Of a DNA stretch of 41,693 bases, positions 14,661 through 22,771 are shown piece by piece. Source of the DNA: Thiotrichaceae bacterium (lineage in GTDB: Bacteria > Pseudomonadota > Gammaproteobacteria > Thiotrichales > Thiotrichaceae); the NCBI GenBank assembly GCA_026991755.1, contig JALXAX010000170.1:1-41693 (forward strand). Reading direction: 5' to 3'. The notes under the pieces were generated by a model. It saw only the letters and a program-made list of their open reading frames with translations. It was not told the origin of the DNA and ran no database searches. The translations under genes were made by a program, and so were the position numbers. Within the stretch, counting starts at the first letter, position 1, and the number at the start of each line of letters is the position of its first letter.

Positions 14661-17600
14661 ATGAGTCATACTCAATTATCTCATCATGCGCAAGTGCACC
14701 ACGTTAATGATGCTAATGCTTTACGTGAGGCAATTTCTATCGCCCGTTCTGGTGATACTATTTCACTCGGAAAAACAGGTGATTATGGTGATATTCGACT
14801 AGTAAATAAATCAGGTATTCGACTTACTTCCAGAAGTAAGCAGCTTGCTATTCAGGCAACGCTAAGTGTAGATGGCACTTGTAATGATATCGTTATAGAA
14901 AACCTTAACCTCTGGAATAACAATCATTCTAAAAAACAAATTCTTTTAGTTGGCGCACAAAGTAAAGATATTACTATCCGTCACTGTATTCTGTCTTCGT
15001 TTCCTGTTTCCATGAATACGCTAAGGGATAGGCTTTCGGGAAAGCCCAAGAGCTGGATCAATGGAATCAGGCTGTTAGGCAACAATTGTAAGGTAACAGA
15101 TAACATTATTGTTAATGTAAAACTAGGAATTCAAGCCAATAGCCTAGATTCTGTTTTAACTAGCAATATCATTCAGTACTTTTCGGATGATGCCATACGT
15201 GTTCAGCAACATAGCATCCAATTACGTAACAATCATATCTATGATTCTGTATTGAGTCATTCTGCTGATACCTTACCTCGAGATGCGATTAAGCTTATTC
15301 CACCTGAACATCGTTTTAAGGGCGGTAAACTCAGAAACATTGAGATCGTTTCAAACATTATACGTAGCCAGTCCCGTAGCACCTCTGTACCCAAACACCT
15401 ACAAGGTACGTTACATGGTATCGCCGCTAGGGATGGTTACTTTGTAAATATAACCGTAGAAAAAAATTCTATAGTGCTCAATTCACACTATGGCATCGTC
15501 TTTAATGGTGTATATCAACTTGAACTGTCCGATAACAAAGTACTTGCGGCACCTGAACATCACTTAGCAACCCCTGCTATTATTTTATACTTAACGTGCA
15601 TTACCACCTCTACACCTTATACACAGAAGTGGCTGGATAGTATCCCCTATTCTGTTAGATATGGTAAAAACCAGGCTCCCTTGTTTAATGTACCTAGTGA
15701 TGTGTATGTTTGTGAAGATCTTGGGCAAAATTATTTTAAGAAAAAGACGCATGATTTAACGCAAGAAGAACATCCTGAATTTGTGCAGAATGCAGTGGGT
15801 ACTGTTGACGGAGTCGATGATATCCATGCTGCAACGTTATCAGCTAATGATGCTTCTCTAGCCCATAACACTACTATTGAGACTGAAAGTGAGGATGATG
15901 ATAGTGGTGAATGCGGTCTGGTTTTTCCACCTTCTTTGCCTGAAGCCAGTCAAAAAGCTACTCAAAGAACCGCTCGAAAAGATATTCAAAACGACATTCA
16001 AGAAGTGGGTGATATTTCTACACCAGATATCAAGTCGGTTGATGTTCCCGTCTTGCACAATCCTATCTCAACTAAAAAAGCCAAACCGATTGCCGCCAGT
16101 CGAAAAGAGGTAGCTTCACCTCCTGTTAACTCCAATCGTCATACTGCCAGCCGCAGTTCTAAGGTATCAATTTCAGCTAGTGTTAGACAAGTCTCGAATG
16201 CAGAACAGTTAACACGTGCTATCGCTGATGCGGTTCCAGGTGACACTATATTGATCACTCACTCAGGTAATTATGGTCAAGTTAGAATTACCAATAAGAC
16301 TAGATTAAGAATTAAATCGTTTAATACGGATATACCTATTCAAGCCACTTTTGTGATTGATGGTTCATCTCGTCTTATCTTGATCGAGAATATGCAACTA
16401 TGGAATGATAATGTGAGCAAGCGGCAGATCATTATCACCGGCCAATCAACCGATAGTATTTTAGTTCGCCACTGCATTATTTCAACGGTTCGTGTCAATC
16501 GCAACACCATGCGCAGACGTTATTCAGGCAACCCTCAGCAGTGGATTAATGGTATTCGTATGCTGGGTAGTAATGGTCAGATTATTAGTAATTATCTGAT
16601 GAACCTAAACATGGCTATTTCTCAAACAGGACCCAATACGCTGGTTCAGCATAACTTGGTACAGTTCTACTCTGAGGATGCGATGCGCGCCAGCAACCAC
16701 GGTGTGAAGATACTGCACAATAATATTTATGATTCAGTTGCCGCACACCCAGGGCAAAATGCTCATAAAGATGCAATCCAACTCATCCCACCGCGTGACA
16801 GATACAATGCGGGCAAGCTGGTTAATGTACAAATTATCGGTAATATTATCCAAAGTTTTACCCAGCCACCTAGCGTGCCTGCTCATCAGCGCGGCACGGT
16901 ACAGGGTATTTTTGGTAGCGATGGCTACTTTATTAATACAACGATTAGTGGCAATACGGTGATGGTCAATTCCGATCATGGTATTACGCTAAACGGGGTT
17001 AGAAATCTAAAACTGATCGATAACAATATTGTCGATTTATCAACCAACAATCAGTTTACCCCTGGTATCAAGCTGTACTTAACGCGTGTAAGTCAGCACG
17101 GACAGCAGAAATGGTTAGCTAACCGCCCTTACTCCCTTCGTATGCAACACAACCAAGCTCCACTGCTTAATATCCCTAATGAGGCATACGATATTGATGA
17201 TGCAGGAAACAATCATTTTGCTAAGCGTTCTCATGATTTGGCTAGAGGTGTTAACCCCATCATCATTAGAAACAGGCTAGAGCCTCAACAGCCAGCTATA
17301 CCTCCAGCGACACCTCCTACTGATTCTTCTATAGGTCATACAGGCTCCGCAGTTAGCGCATTTTCAATTACTAATAGAGATGAGTTGCAACGCGCTATTC
17401 ACGCTTCATCTTCTGGCGATACGCTTGTGTTTGAGCAATCAGGTCATTATGGTTTGATTCGCATCACTAATAAGACAGGGCTTCGTATTCGTGCAGCTCA
17501 TTCAGGTATAACGATTAACGCCAACTTCTTATTAGATGGCCAATCAAAGAATATTATTATTGAGAATCTAAATATTTGGTTCTCGGAAAGAGACTGGAAA

Positions 17601-18458
17601 CCCGTTATTTTAACAGGTCCTGAAACGGCCAATATGACCATCAGAAACTGTTTGATTTCTTCCTATCAAGTGACTCGTAGTAATGCACGAACACAAATGA
17701 CAGGGACACCAGCCAACTGGGTGACGGGCATTTGGTTACGAGGCCGTGGTAATGAAGTCATCAACAACCATATAACCAATGTGCGGGTAGGCATTGCGAT
17801 TAATGGTATGCACACGTTATTACAAAATAATCTCATTCAGTACTATACCGATACAGGAATTAGAGCTATTAATGATCATTTAGAGATTGTACATAATAAT
17901 ATTTATGATGCTATTTCTCGCAAACCTAACAGCAAGAGACTGGCGACAGGTATTCAGCTTATTCCCGCTAAAGATCGTTTTGATGGTGGCATGATTAAGA
18001 ATATTCAAATTACCCATAACGTTATTCAAGCAACTAACTCAGGTAGCCCGACTCCTGAAGAACTGCAGGCACCGTTACAAGGTATTTCTATGCATGATGG
18101 TTATATTTCTGGCATGGTGATCAACTCTAATACCGTTATTGTCAACACGGAGTATGGGATTACACTAAACGGTGCGAGTGGTTTGTCACTCAACGGAAAT
18201 CGTGTATTTGACTCCCGCCCAACTGATAACTTTATACCTGGAATTCGCATTTACTATACACGTACTATTGATATTAACGGCAGCCGTGAACAGGTTTGGC
18301 GAAGCGGAAGAAATTACTCTATAAGCTATAGTAGCAATCAAGCGGCTGTATTTAATATTCCAGATACGGGATATGAGATAAATGATGGAGGTGATAATCG
18401 CTTTGGTCGTATCAGTTATGATAAAGCTCGCGGATTTGACCCCATCATCGTACCTTAA
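14661..18458 (+). CDS. Triplicated right-handed parallel beta-helix protein (1265 aa)
   Basis: A 1265-residue protein made of three homologous units at about 12-375, 506-872 and 901-1265. Units 1 and 2 are joined by a Ser/Thr/Lys-rich linker of about 130 residues. Each unit shows the same ladder: GDT-x-n-GxYGxIR-xxNK, DG-x-I-IENLNLW, WINGIRLLG, an Asn-rich run (NHIYDSV or NNIYD), DAIxLIPP-xxRF-xGG, then DGYF and YGIxLNG, closing with NQAP-x-NIP and HDLxRG. Asn and Ile ladders of this kind are typical of pectate-lyase-like and C5-epimerase-like beta-helices, which usually bind or modify acidic polysaccharides. No catalytic signature that I know is evident. GAGG sits 8 bases before the ATG, so the start is sound, and there is no signal peptide. 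Localisation is therefore puzzling: cytoplasmic, or exported by a non-Sec route. Confidence 0.82.
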   Translation: MSHTQLSHHAQVHHVNDANALREAISIARSGDTISLGKTGDYGDIRLVNKSGIRLTSRSKQLAIQATLSVDGTCNDIVIENLNLWNNNHSKKQILLVGAQSKDITIRHCILSSFPVSMNTLRDRLSGKPKSWINGIRLLGNNCKVTDNIIVNVKLGIQANSLDSVLTSNIIQYFSDDAIRVQQHSIQLRNNHIYDSVLSHSADTLPRDAIKLIPPEHRFKGGKLRNIEIVSNIIRSQSRSTSVPKHLQGTLHGIAARDGYFVNITVEKNSIVLNSHYGIVFNGVYQLELSDNKVLAAPEHHLATPAIILYLTCITTSTPYTQKWLDSIPYSVRYGKNQAPLFNVPSDVYVCEDLGQNYFKKKTHDLTQEEHPEFVQNAVGTVDGVDDIHAATLSANDASLAHNTTIETESEDDDSGECGLVFPPSLPEASQKATQRTARKDIQNDIQEVGDISTPDIKSVDVPVLHNPISTKKAKPIAASRKEVASPPVNSNRHTASRSSKVSISASVRQVSNAEQLTRAIADAVPGDTILITHSGNYGQVRITNKTRLRIKSFNTDIPIQATFVIDGSSRLILIENMQLWNDNVSKRQIIITGQSTDSILVRHCIISTVRVNRNTMRRRYSGNPQQWINGIRMLGSNGQIISNYLMNLNMAISQTGPNTLVQHNLVQFYSEDAMRASNHGVKILHNNIYDSVAAHPGQNAHKDAIQLIPPRDRYNAGKLVNVQIIGNIIQSFTQPPSVPAHQRGTVQGIFGSDGYFINTTISGNTVMVNSDHGITLNGVRNLKLIDNNIVDLSTNNQFTPGIKLYLTRVSQHGQQKWLANRPYSLRMQHNQAPLLNIPNEAYDIDDAGNNHFAKRSHDLARGVNPIIIRNRLEPQQPAIPPATPPTDSSIGHTGSAVSAFSITNRDELQRAIHASSSGDTLVFEQSGHYGLIRITNKTGLRIRAAHSGITINANFLLDGQSKNIIIENLNIWFSERDWKPVILTGPETANMTIRNCLISSYQVTRSNARTQMTGTPANWVTGIWLRGRGNEVINNHITNVRVGIAINGMHTLLQNNLIQYYTDTGIRAINDHLEIVHNNIYDAISRKPNSKRLATGIQLIPAKDRFDGGMIKNIQITHNVIQATNSGSPTPEELQAPLQGISMHDGYISGMVINSNTVIVNTEYGITLNGASGLSLNGNRVFDSRPTDNFIPGIRIYYTRTIDINGSREQVWRSGRNYSISYSSNQAAVFNIPDTGYEINDGGDNRFGRISYDKARGFDPIIVP

Positions 18459-18557: not shown

Positions 18558-18692
18558 GGACTTGATCAGGTTCCCTAAGTCATGACCCTTTTTTGTGAAA
18601 CTCCTTAACGGCTTGCTACTAGGCTGAAATAACAAGAATTTCCACACCACAGAAATAATTGATCAAAAATGCATCCATACCATTGAGACTGC

Positions 18693-18740
18693 CGTATACA
18701 GTTATACGCTTTACTGCGTATGTAAATCCTAGATTTACAT
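18693..18740 (+). promoter_or_regulatory. Two operator-like inverted repeats upstream of the EGKCG gene
   Basis: CGTATA-N4-TATACG (18693-18708) and ATGTAAATC-N3-GATTTACAT (18720-18740) are both perfect. They end 36 bases before the ATG at 18777, where a regulator would bind. They have the size and symmetry of dimeric repressor sites. No regulator gene lies nearby, so the partner is unknown. A metal- or redox-sensing regulator would fit related systems, but that is inference. Confidence 0.45.
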
Positions 18741-18776: not shown

Positions 18777-19040
18777 ATGATTACACGTAAAAATCTTTTA
18801 GCTCTTGCAGTTTCTACTTCACTTGCTGCAACAATGGTTGGTTGTTCAAAGTACACAACAGATTCAGGATCATCTGCTGCTAAAGCAAGCGCTTCTGCCA
18901 AAGCAAAAGAAGGAAAGTGTGGCGAAGGCAAATGCGGCGGAAAGAAAGCTAAGGAAGGAAAATGCGGTGAAGGTAAATGCGGTGGAAAGAAAGCTAAGAA
19001 AGAAGGAAAGTGTGGCGAAGGTAAATGCGGTGGTAAATAA
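18777..19040 (+). CDS. HvfA/GigA-like EGKCG-repeat lipoprotein, candidate RiPP precursor
   Basis: An 87-residue protein with a signal sequence ending MVGC (Cys23), a plausible lipobox with Ser at +2, which favours the outer membrane. A short spacer rich in Ser, Ala and Lys follows. The rest is three units of EGKCGEGKCGGKKAK, the last cut short, giving six EGKCG motifs. EGKCG repeats are the hallmark of HvfA- and GigA-type peptides; in HvfA an MNIO (DUF692) enzyme, HvfB, with partner HvfC, turns the Cys into copper-binding oxazolone/thioamide groups. Those partner genes normally sit next to the precursor, but here the neighbours are a beta-helix gene and recC. AAGGA lies 8 bases before the ATG. 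It is either an orphan substrate modified in trans or an unmodified thiol-rich metal-binding lipoprotein. The motif assignment is strong; modification is inference. Confidence 0.85.
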   Translation: MITRKNLLALAVSTSLAATMVGCSKYTTDSGSSAAKASASAKAKEGKCGEGKCGGKKAKEGKCGEGKCGGKKAKKEGKCGEGKCGGK

Positions 19041-19128: not shown

Positions 19129-19287
19129 GAGACCTTTGCACGAAAGATATGACGGATAAAAATGGCTTGAATTTTCTCTATTTCTGCTAAAAATTCGGCC
19201 AATAGCTCGGCTATTACCCTCTTTTTTAGCAAAAATAGAGAAAATTACGCTCATTTTTCTCTCGCCATCCTTTCGTGCAAAGGTCTC
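19129..19287 (+). mobile_element. GAGACC-family MITE, long copy (159 bp)
   Basis: It has perfect 18-bp ends, GAGACCTTTGCACGAAAG and its complement, and ATAGT on both sides (19124-19128 and 19288-19292) as a 5-bp target duplication. The interior contains a second long inverted repeat (TTTTCTCTATTT against AAATAGAGAAAA), so almost the whole element can fold into one hairpin. No coding capacity; it must be moved in trans. Confidence 0.88.
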
Positions 19288-19357
19288 ATAGTATCAGTGT
19301 GTTTTCCATCGTATCGCGTTACAGAATCATATCAAGTGTTACTGACCCACTGAAATA

Positions 19358-22300
19358 TCAATTTTTTTGACCATTTTCCCAAATGGGATTCAATAAAGTA
19401 CAAGCTTCCTCAAATTTATTATTAATAACTTCATCAATCGTTAGGTCTTTATAAATAAGTTGAAAGAATGAATCGTACTCATATTCTTTTCTATATCGAT
19501 TGCTAGCACTTTGTAGAGGCGATATTCGTCCTGTTTTTTTATGCTGTTGCTCATGCCATGCTATTGCGGGCTCTATCAATAAGTCGCTTGGTTGCTTTTG
19601 ACCTGCACTATAAACATCAACTAATGCTTTAAGTAATTCCTCAGCCTCACTCTTATTGACAGCATCACTAGAAAAATGCCAATTTTGATCTTTTGTTAAT
19701 AACCATGTGTCGGAAGCGGTAGTACCTGTTTCATTTTCTTTTGCAATTAGATAACTCAACCATACGGGTAACAGATCTTTACCCTTCAGTTTGGCATAAC
19801 GATAAATCAATCTCCCCTTCTGATACTGATTGTCTAATACGCCGACAATACGATAATCCCCAATTTCTATATCGATAGCCAATGCTTCCATTGATGTGCC
19901 AGCACCCACATTTTTGATCTGATCAACAAAATTGACAATATCTTGTTTTTGTTCTGTAAAACTGATGATGCCATTGCTATTATTCAGCCATCGCCCTTGT
20001 GCGATTAATTTTTTATAAAAACCCTCATCATCTTTCTCCGCTAGTTGATGTTCAACCCATTCTTGGTTGATTAGATATTGATCTAAACCATCCACTATAA
20101 ACGGCTCTGTTTCGTCAGCCCTATTTTCAATACGCGGAATATTTATTTGTAACTGTTGTTGAATAAAATGACGCTGAGGGTGTTGATAAAAAGACAATAA
20201 GTCTGCTAGTTCAATCACTGTTTTTGTATCGTTCTCGATCGAACCTTGCCACCACTTCTGGCTCCCCTCATTGATGGATCGAATTGAAGGATTTAACGCC
20301 TGAGCTGCCAACAGTTGATGTGACGAATAAGTAAAATACTGCTTACTATCAGAGAAATACCAGGGGCTATGTGCTTGTAAGCGGTGATATGTCACCCAAG
20401 GTGTTAATGAACTTTCAGCTGTAGTTTGAAAAGTGGCTTCAGCAGATGGACTTGGAGAGCCTTCAGCATGTGGAGAGTCTTCAACATGTGGAGAGTCTTC
20501 AGCGTTCGAGAAATGTTCATCTATGTATTCAAGTAATTCAGATACTACTACGGAAGGCGGGATAATACTGTTATTGCTCTTAGCTTGGCCCACGTAGGTC
20601 ATGATCAATTGTTGTCGAGCTGATAACAGCACTTCAAGAAACTGATAACGCTCGTCAACCCGTGGTGCTTTATCACCTTTTCTAAAATCATCGGCAAGCA
20701 AATCAAATGCAGGTCTTGTATCTGCACGAGGGTATTCACCATCATTCATGCCCATTAGTGCGATAACCTTGAAAGGAATTGCTCGCATGGGTAGCATCGA
20801 ACAAAACGTTAGCTGCCCCCTAAGAAAACCCGCTGCTGACTGTTGGCTGGTGGCAGCACGGGTCAATGCCGCTAGAATAACATCGAGACTTATCTTCTGT
20901 TGATGGATGCCTGAAAATTTGTCTAAATCGGTAATAAGTTCTATTAGCACAGCGTATGAGTGTTGATAATCACCCGTTGACACCAATAAGTCTTCAGCAA
21001 AACGGCCTAGATGCTTATTCCAATACTCTAGTGTATGTGGCTGTGAAAAGACCTTCTTGGCATGACTAAGCAGGCTGATAAAATCATACATTCCACCTAG
21101 TGCTTTTGCTTCAGAACCTTCGATTTCAGCAAAGGGTAATACGGACTCATTAGCATCATTTGCTGGCTCACAAAAATGCTCATCATCAGAGTTGGCATAC
21201 CCCATCAACAACCTTTCTAAACCAGCCTTCCAGCTATTTTCAGAGAAAGGAATAAAGCCATATTCTTCACGATGTTGTGCAGACTCACCCCAACGAATGT
21301 GAGTTGCCGCGACCCATACACGGATATTCTCAATATCCACTTCAGATAATCCGAAATGCTCATAGACTACGGCTTGATCCAATACATCAAAAACAGCCTC
21401 TATCTCCCAGCGGTGTTGACTTAATGTTAGAAAGCGCAGGAAAATACTGAGTGGATTATTGCTATCTAAGGTGTTTTTGTCCGCAATGGCATGAGGTATA
21501 TCCTCAAAAACAGCGGATATATAGGGGGCATATTGGGTGATGTCGGGTGTCATCACTAGAATATCTCTGATGGTCAACGTTGGATCGTCATCAAGGCACT
21601 GTAATAGCAGATCTTTTAAAACTTCCGCCTCACGCATCCTGCTATGACAAACATGAATACTAAGGCTGTTATCTGTTGTAGCTATAAGTTTTCGATTATT
21701 AACGGCTTGGTCATTAGCTTTTAAAACTGAGTTATTCAGAATATCATTTTGAATCAGTGCTAATAACGTATCATCATCATTTTTTTCGAAGCTTTGGTAC
21801 TGGATTTCAAAGTCACACTGTTCTAATAGCAATTGCTGAAAATCACGACCTTGCTGACCTAGTGCAGCTAATAACGGATTGTTTGTTATTAATAGGGGCT
21901 CAAGCTCACTATCTGGATCTCTAGTTTGTTCAAACTGTTCTGAGGCTCCTGCCCGTTGTTTTGCCAGCTGTTTTTTACTAGGCAAGTCTGCCCAGTAAGA
22001 TTGTGCTGGATTAAGTAGATAAAAATGCACATCAATAAAATGACCTATCGCTTGAAGAAAGTTTAGATAAATAGGTGACATGCCGTTAATGCCAAATATA
22101 CTCAGCCGCTCAGGTAGTAATTGCCTGGCTTGTTGCTTGTCCATTTTTGAGAGTGCTTCAATAGCATCTAACCAAAGGTGTCCTTTTCCCTTATTGTTGC
22201 TAAAGGTGTCGCTAGAGGTTTCGCTACAGGTGTCGCTACTGTTATCGCTGCCTAACTGATGCCATAAATCTTGCTGCCAGCTTTCACTCGGGTTGTTTGT

Positions 22301-22771
22301 AACCCGTCTTCCCTGCTCCCATTCAGACATCCAGTCAGGTCGCATAAATTGGTATTGATCGAACAAAAAAGCCAACTTTTCAGCTAATTGATAACGTTTA
22401 AGGTCAACACATTCGCCATCTATATAATGAGATAGGATTGGGTTTTGTAACTTGCTATGCTCATCAAGACTTCTCAATAAATGATCAAAGTGCCACAGAA
22501 GTGATTCTTGATCATAAAGCTCCGAGTGTACTTTGCCCTCAGGGACAAGCTTATCAACGATATTACCAAAAAACTTACCTGGGAAGTGGAAGTCAAAGTT
22601 AGCCCACACGCCTTTTCTATCGGCTAATTGTTGTGACAACCAACGCTCCATTCCCTGACTTTGGATTAGAAGCTGTTCTTTTTTAAAAGGATGCGATAAG
22701 GGGTTTTCTATGACTTGGTGTAAATGAGCCAATAAGTTTTCTGTTTTATTAGAAGTATGTAGGACAAACAT
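19358..22771 (-). CDS. recC: Exodeoxyribonuclease V subunit RecC
   Basis: A 1137-residue protein, close to the usual RecC length of about 1120. The N-terminus reads VLHTSNKTENLLAHL, then LIQSQGMERWLSQQLADRKG and NFDFHFPGKFF, matching the opening of RecC proteins. RecC is the helicase-like, inactive-nuclease scaffold of RecBCD; it recognises Chi and splits the strands during double-strand break repair in the cytoplasm. Residues of about 255-285 and 770-800 carry Ser/Glu-rich insertions that look like loop expansions. It lies 72 bases after the RNB ribonuclease gene on the same strand, perhaps in one transcript. recB and recD, which are its obligate partners and often adjacent, are not in the window. 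No clear ribosome site precedes the ATG. Confidence 0.92.
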   Translation of the reverse strand: MFVLHTSNKTENLLAHLHQVIENPLSHPFKKEQLLIQSQGMERWLSQQLADRKGVWANFDFHFPGKFFGNIVDKLVPEGKVHSELYDQESLLWHFDHLLRSLDEHSKLQNPILSHYIDGECVDLKRYQLAEKLAFLFDQYQFMRPDWMSEWEQGRRVTNNPSESWQQDLWHQLGSDNSSDTCSETSSDTFSNNKGKGHLWLDAIEALSKMDKQQARQLLPERLSIFGINGMSPIYLNFLQAIGHFIDVHFYLLNPAQSYWADLPSKKQLAKQRAGASEQFEQTRDPDSELEPLLITNNPLLAALGQQGRDFQQLLLEQCDFEIQYQSFEKNDDDTLLALIQNDILNNSVLKANDQAVNNRKLIATTDNSLSIHVCHSRMREAEVLKDLLLQCLDDDPTLTIRDILVMTPDITQYAPYISAVFEDIPHAIADKNTLDSNNPLSIFLRFLTLSQHRWEIEAVFDVLDQAVVYEHFGLSEVDIENIRVWVAATHIRWGESAQHREEYGFIPFSENSWKAGLERLLMGYANSDDEHFCEPANDANESVLPFAEIEGSEAKALGGMYDFISLLSHAKKVFSQPHTLEYWNKHLGRFAEDLLVSTGDYQHSYAVLIELITDLDKFSGIHQQKISLDVILAALTRAATSQQSAAGFLRGQLTFCSMLPMRAIPFKVIALMGMNDGEYPRADTRPAFDLLADDFRKGDKAPRVDERYQFLEVLLSARQQLIMTYVGQAKSNNSIIPPSVVVSELLEYIDEHFSNAEDSPHVEDSPHAEGSPSPSAEATFQTTAESSLTPWVTYHRLQAHSPWYFSDSKQYFTYSSHQLLAAQALNPSIRSINEGSQKWWQGSIENDTKTVIELADLLSFYQHPQRHFIQQQLQINIPRIENRADETEPFIVDGLDQYLINQEWVEHQLAEKDDEGFYKKLIAQGRWLNNSNGIISFTEQKQDIVNFVDQIKNVGAGTSMEALAIDIEIGDYRIVGVLDNQYQKGRLIYRYAKLKGKDLLPVWLSYLIAKENETGTTASDTWLLTKDQNWHFSSDAVNKSEAEELLKALVDVYSAGQKQPSDLLIEPAIAWHEQQHKKTGRISPLQSASNRYRKEYEYDSFFQLIYKDLTIDEVINNKFEEACTLLNPIWENGQKN

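Follow-up and report, generated by a model that had tools for sequence, protein, structure and literature searches.

The question raised by this locus is whether a lone gene for an EGKCG-repeat protein with a lipoprotein signal, standing apart from any MNIO gene, encodes a peptide modified by enzymes from elsewhere in the genome, or a protein that is put to another use. The window (the whole stretch of DNA analysed) is the complete contig C170, 41,693 bases, of a 3.66-Mb draft genome in 207 contigs (G000).

The orphan gene and its surroundings

The gene, referred to as the orphan, and the features close to it are listed by position.

18670..18696, plus strand: promoter-like dyad TGCATCC-N16-CGTA; its first base lies 107 bp ahead of the orphan ATG.
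18777..19040, plus strand: lipobox EGKCG protein (lipo-oxazolin-like precursor), 87 aa, stop codon within the coordinates.
18777..18845, plus strand: predicted lipoprotein signal (pattern match), residues 1-23, with MVGC lipobox, Cys23, and Ser at +2.
18846..18908, plus strand: spacer rich in Ser, Ala, and Lys, residues 24-44.
18909..19037, plus strand: three repeat units, comprising six EGKCG motifs.
19131..19292, no strand given: short inverted-repeat element, MITE-like, with ends of GAGACCTTTGCACGAAA type.

The frame 18777-19040 starts with ATG, with an AAGGA ribosome-binding-like sequence immediately 5'; the N-terminus (signal MITRKNLLALAVSTSLAATMVGC) consists of a basic start and a hydrophobic stretch up to MVGC. 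The 12-residue cores of the repeats (EGKCGEGKCGGK) begin at residues 45, 60, and 76 (spacings of 15 and 16), so that the six EGKCG motifs, the units of 15-16 residues, and the MVGC lipobox described in the original prediction are all present. Comparison of the cores in pairs gives 5, 4, and 5 base differences; the repeats are not a matter of chance, since all 14 differences are synonymous and none is non-synonymous.

The assignment to the HvfA type made at the outset is confirmed by the HvfA-family domain of NCBIfam (NF050137; 61.5 bits, cut-off 19.5), and the repeated motifs with an N-terminal export signal are those of an EGKCG/oxazolin (HvfA-family) precursor in the wide sense, as judged from sequence. 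The strict HvfA equivalog (NF050188) was rejected as the identity of the orphan (49.7 bits, below the curated cut-off of 95); three lipobox-free HvfA-like proteins also score below 95 (41.9, 78.6, and 64.5 bits). No Pfam model matched the orphan protein in a profile search at E up to 10. Lipobox calls follow a PROSITE-type prolipoprotein rule and are pattern matches; by this rule Cys23 gives the orphan the lipobox of a RiPP-lipoprotein hybrid (NedA type). According to the E. coli rule of lipoprotein sorting, a protein with Ser at +2 would go to the outer membrane; the Ser after Cys23 therefore makes this membrane the probable anchor site, and the earlier term 'surface-anchored' goes too far, the rule predicting the membrane and not its exposed face.

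The orphan is flanked directly by the gene of a beta-helix protein (14661-18458) and by that of RecC on the minus strand (19358-22771). As had been predicted, no MNIO adjoins the orphan: none was found in the 41,693-base window, which thus lacks the classical hvf/buf arrangement of an MNIO and a DUF2063 partner adjacent to the precursor. The protein encoded directly 5' of the orphan is a right-handed beta-helix protein (PF13229) of 1265 aa, with three similar long segments by eye and a NosD match under its cut-off. Downstream, at 90 bp, lies the element 19131-19292, of which the genome holds at least 40 near-full copies (40 of 257 candidates scored); a relative sits where contigs C76 and C171 end, between hvfA2 of the former and doxX of the latter, and inverted-repeat elements of this kind are perhaps behind the fragmentation into 207 contigs.

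HvfB-HvfC-DoxX and lipobox genes in the genus

The whole-genome search proposed with the original prediction was run, and returned one MNIO/HvfB, HvfC, DoxX, and three further EGKCG proteins. The only MNIO found (contig C171; PF05114, 335.9 bits) passes the HvfB equivalog (434.7 bits, cut-off 360); the gene after it is HvfC (299.3 bits, cut-off 142), the gene before it DoxX. HvfB and HvfC of a classical hvf/buf cluster are thus encoded in the same genome as the orphan. The description of the orphan as 'without its modifying enzyme' therefore applies to the neighbourhood and fails for the genome; a complete absence of MNIO from this genome, which had been put forward as refuting a modified peptide, is not what was found, and an orphan without any enzyme in its genome is ruled out by the one HvfB on C171.

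Two of the further EGKCG proteins (hvfA1, hvfA2), both without lipobox, are encoded on C76 just ahead of the contig end, and C171 begins within a repeat that also closes C76, with an exact overlap of 67 bases. From this overlap and from the position of the C76 genes at that end we infer that the operon is probably hvfA1-hvfA2-doxX-hvfB-hvfC, split by the assembly. The fourth EGKCG gene of the genome, on C112, is a second lipobox copy (LVAC), beside genes that we take, by eye, to be dsr genes.

Among six genomes of the genus, four have EGKCG matches, and all four carry lipobox copies, which make up six of the ten EGKCG ORFs counted (the counting rule missed a second HvfA-like protein of G014, which has EGQCG motifs). 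These are the same four genomes that have the MNIO-HvfC-DoxX operon, as called with the equivalog for G000 and with PF05114 and by eye for the other three. G016 (93% complete) has a single MNIO, in a differently built cluster, and in G013 (69% complete) no MNIO was found; EGKCG matches at E up to 10 were found in neither. The operon neighbourhood varies: in G014, a sister genome, two HvfA-like genes are followed by an apparent doxX start (by eye) at the end of the same contig, and in G017 the row is hvfA, doxX, MNIO, HvfC, and MsrP/MsrQ-like genes, a naming of the genes beside HvfC that we assume, the domains having been tested on the G015 copies. One of the HvfA-like proteins of G014 (L164, 5978-6301) has a His/Asp/Glu-rich middle and only two KCG motifs, C-terminal; it may be a hybrid metal binder.

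Each of the four genomes has a lipobox copy that adjoins a TauD-like gene, followed by dsrAB-like genes (TauD-like domain tested on the G000 copy; dsr-like names by eye); G017 has two lipobox copies in tandem. The window orphan is the sole lipobox copy of six away from dsr-like genes. Because its signal is identical at 21 of 23 positions to those of G017 lipo1 and of the G015 lipobox gene, it has the look of a copy that has moved away from the set beside the dsr-like genes; the similarity of the lipobox signals may be mere common descent. When residues are counted from the conserved MITRKNLL/MISRKNLL start, all six lipobox genes of the four genomes have Cys as residue 23, with A or G before it.

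The arrangement in G015 (listed as 100% complete) bears most directly on the question. Its operon consists of DoxX, MNIO, HvfC, and MsrP/Q-like genes, and no EGKCG gene was found beside it in an 11-kb stretch, where ATG frames of 30-250 residues with at least three Cys were limited to the MsrQ-like protein and, about 3.6 kb off, a frame of 41 codons. A search of the whole genome at E up to 10 gave three EGKCG matches, all within a lipobox orphan; a second MNIO has its own Buf1-like precursor in front (by eye). Since the operon has no EGKCG precursor and no EGKCG gene other than this orphan was found, the orphan is, on this reasoning, the substrate of the MNIO-HvfC pair, unless the pair is idle or serves an unrecognised substrate. 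As operon and lone EGKCG gene share a dyad, G015 is a natural test case for modification in trans.

EGKCG loci outside the genus and the shared dyad

Loci outside the genus were taken from two biased samples: a named sample of the best 80 matches to the orphan protein itself, and a class sample of 72 stretches (73 ORFs) hand-picked among the matches listed, in which 86 of 370 class genomes had EGKCG matches. The counting rule found no ORF in four of the 72 class loci, and at least one ORF occurs in both samples (as L129 and as L271). The lipobox rule was satisfied by none of the best 80 named ORFs and by none of the 73 class ORFs among the matches listed, so that lipobox EGKCG proteins are ruled out as a common type in the sampled loci. 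An MNIO lies within the fetched stretch for 67 of the best 80 named ORFs and 57 of the 73 class ORFs among the matches listed; the remaining 13 and 16, some in stretches that end at a contig end, resemble the orphan in this respect, and the missing adjacent MNIO is thereby ruled out as an unusual trait. Fourteen class genomes have an EGKCG locus with no MNIO in its stretch; in 13 of them an MNIO lies elsewhere (G353, not an orphan case, is left out of this count). In G181 (listed as 99% complete; loci L234, L251) there are two EGKCG genes, and the genome gave no match for an MNIO, which makes an unmodified use of EGKCG proteins possible.

When dyads combining a 6-mer with a 4-mer were counted over 14 upstream regions from the genus, TGCATC-N17-CGTA came out as the most frequent, with six regions; in 100 dinucleotide shuffles of these regions no dyad was common to more than three. 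It precedes all four operon heads, namely hvfA1 (G000, by way of the probable C76-C171 join, and G014), hvfA (G017), and doxX (G015), and two of the six lipobox genes, at 107 bp from the ATG in the window orphan and at 109 bp in that of G015; upstream of the other four lipobox genes, including the C112 copy, the exact dyad was not found. Exact genome-wide matches to TGCATCY-N16-CGTA number 12 (G000, 3; G014, 1; G015, 2; G017, 6; G013, 0; G016, 0); single matches can be chance, because the dyad read backward gives six in the same six genomes. The only two copies in G015 are those of the operon head and the lipobox orphan, and two of the three in G000 those of the orphan and the operon head. The third in G000 (L170, on C128; 1527, minus strand) lies upstream of a DUF302 gene, a candidate regulon member. 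Five of the six matches in G017 precede other genes, by eye those of exported redox or folding proteins and of an Rrf2-type regulator.

Across 152 loci not used for discovery of the dyad (1.41 Mb, both strands, 149 EGKCG ORFs), there were three exact matches, all at EGKCG genes, that is, from -250 to +60 bp of the chosen start (L249, L273, L285). The count in eleven further genomes was 55 (control, 8); 11 of these matches, the three above among them, lie upstream of EGKCG or MNIO matches (same strand, within 900 bp, coordinates read by eye) and 44 do not; in G034, G035, G036, and G055 no dyad was found upstream of EGKCG/MNIO matches. Given these 11 of 55, the dyad appears to be the mark of a broader regulon, which would include many EGKCG/MNIO genes and not MNIO genes alone. 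Its form presumably points to an ECF sigma factor; none could be assigned among 8-12 Sigma70_r4_2 matches per genus genome, and no literature tying an ECF sigma factor to MNIO and copper was found. The dyad offers a handle on the stress that switches on these metal-binding peptides. Another dyad, GAAAT-N17-GGTC, was seen upstream of EGKCG ORFs in 33 named or class loci searched (raw count), which suggests a second promoter type for oxazolin operons.

Weighing of the explanations and comparison with known systems

We consider it fairly probable that the orphan is an oxazolin with a lipid anchor, that HvfBC modifies it in trans, and that it acts as a copper buffer at the membrane. Of the two alternatives in the original prediction, modification in trans or a different use of the motif, the former is now favoured, as far as sequence can tell, because of the shared dyad and the arrangement in G015. 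Acting at TGCATCY-N16-CGTA, an alternative sigma factor of ECF type would turn on the hvfA operon together with the orphan; prior to export, HvfB-HvfC encoded on C171 would modify the cysteines of the EGKCG motifs, the probable product being 5-thiooxazoles; the protein would then leave by the Sec route, be acylated at Cys23, and be cut by signal peptidase II, remaining lipid-anchored, probably in the outer membrane; and, by analogy with published relatives, the anchored orphan would bind copper as a fixed pool alongside the HvfA-like proteins of the operon.

An unmodified thiol lipoprotein, independent of HvfBC and with free cysteines that bind metal or serve as a redox or sulfane-sulfur sponge, is rather unlikely: G015 keeps MNIO-HvfC-DoxX while its sole EGKCG gene is a lipobox orphan with the same dyad, and an MNIO is present elsewhere in 13 of the 14 class genomes with MNIO-less EGKCG stretches. 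In its favour are the distance of the orphan from an MNIO, the MNIO-less stretches of the two samples (13 of the best 80 named, 16 of the 73 listed class ORFs, some ending at a contig end), the two EGKCG genes of G181, the dsrAB-like genes adjoining lipobox homologues in four genomes, and the naming of this possibility in the available part of PMC12452194. If Cys23 were fortuitous, a cut by signal peptidase I would release an ordinary free oxazolin; the lipobox is indeed called by a pattern rule, and lipobox-free HvfA paralogues match the orphan at 10-14 of 23 signal positions, but Cys23 follows A or G in all six genus genes, against no lipobox in the best 80 named and the 73 listed class ORFs, and we hold such a release to be very unlikely. 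Hardly to be expected, finally, is a duplicated copy moved by repeats and fallen out of use, for which the loss of the dsr-like neighbours of the other five lipobox copies and the repeat element (at least 40 copies) 90 bp downstream would speak; the frame is intact, the dyad is kept, and the repeat-core differences are all synonymous.

Beyond the lipid-anchored oxazolin modified in trans, a broader and doubtful proposal is that HvfBC of the genus may be a trans-acting hub whose substrates have spread to anchored proteins (five of six beside dsrAB), the operon precursor of G015 having been replaced by an anchored one; the outcome would be a membrane-fixed thiooxazole buffer for copper (or sulfur), tied to sulfur oxidation, besides the free one.

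The closest known system is NedA of Neisseria dentiae (PMC12636315), which, like the orphan, has a lipoprotein signal and repeated EGKCG motifs. The available part of that paper reports lipoprotein signals in a subset of bufferins and oxazolins; NedA is a lipidated EGKCG precursor, triacylated, with a shift of -12 Da in the presence of NedBC that fits 4 Da at each of its three EGKCG motifs. NedA was expressed with NedB and NedC, from a cluster mined around MNIO genes, whereas the orphan lies away from any MNIO and has six such motifs. HvfA/oxazolin of Haemophilus influenzae and the fontiphorin FonA (PMC13097082) share with the orphan the EGKCG repeats, and homologues of HvfB, HvfC, and DoxX are present in its genome; they are encoded in clusters, in contrast to the stand-alone lipobox gene, and 'lipo' does not occur in the available text. 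The HvfA modification is reassigned there to 5-thiooxazole, which replaces the oxazolone/thioamide chemistry assumed at first; of the FonA peptides, a shortened form with two repeats was modified and a second shortened form was not. The repeats of the orphan form three double repeats.

Stand-alone Buf_EGKCG/oxazolin precursors are described in PMC12452194 and, like the orphan, have no associated MNIO gene; 67 of 2583 genomes had EGKCG genes and no MNIO. In the part available, an MNIO at another locus, or one MNIO pair serving several precursors, is proposed and left undecided, and unmodified precursors are named as a possibility; lipoprotein signals are mentioned once, for Buf2 (~16%), whereas the orphan is of the EGKCG type, and no shared promoter for stand-alone precursors was found. 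Within G000, the HvfA-like proteins of C76 resemble the orphan in their repeats and related signal, and hvfA1 has the same dyad; they have no lipobox by the rule used and sit at the probable operon, whereas the orphan has one and stands alone. A literature search for lipoprotein oxazolins with MNIO gave nothing relevant beyond the papers cited here. Lipidated oxazolins, stand-alone precursors, and modification in trans have each been published or proposed (PMC12636315, PMC12452194, as far as available); new here, compared with the same parts of these papers, are the combination of the three, its recurrence in the genus, and the shared dyad, and the arrangement in G015 addresses the question of PMC12452194 whether MNIO-distant precursors are modified in trans or unmodified.
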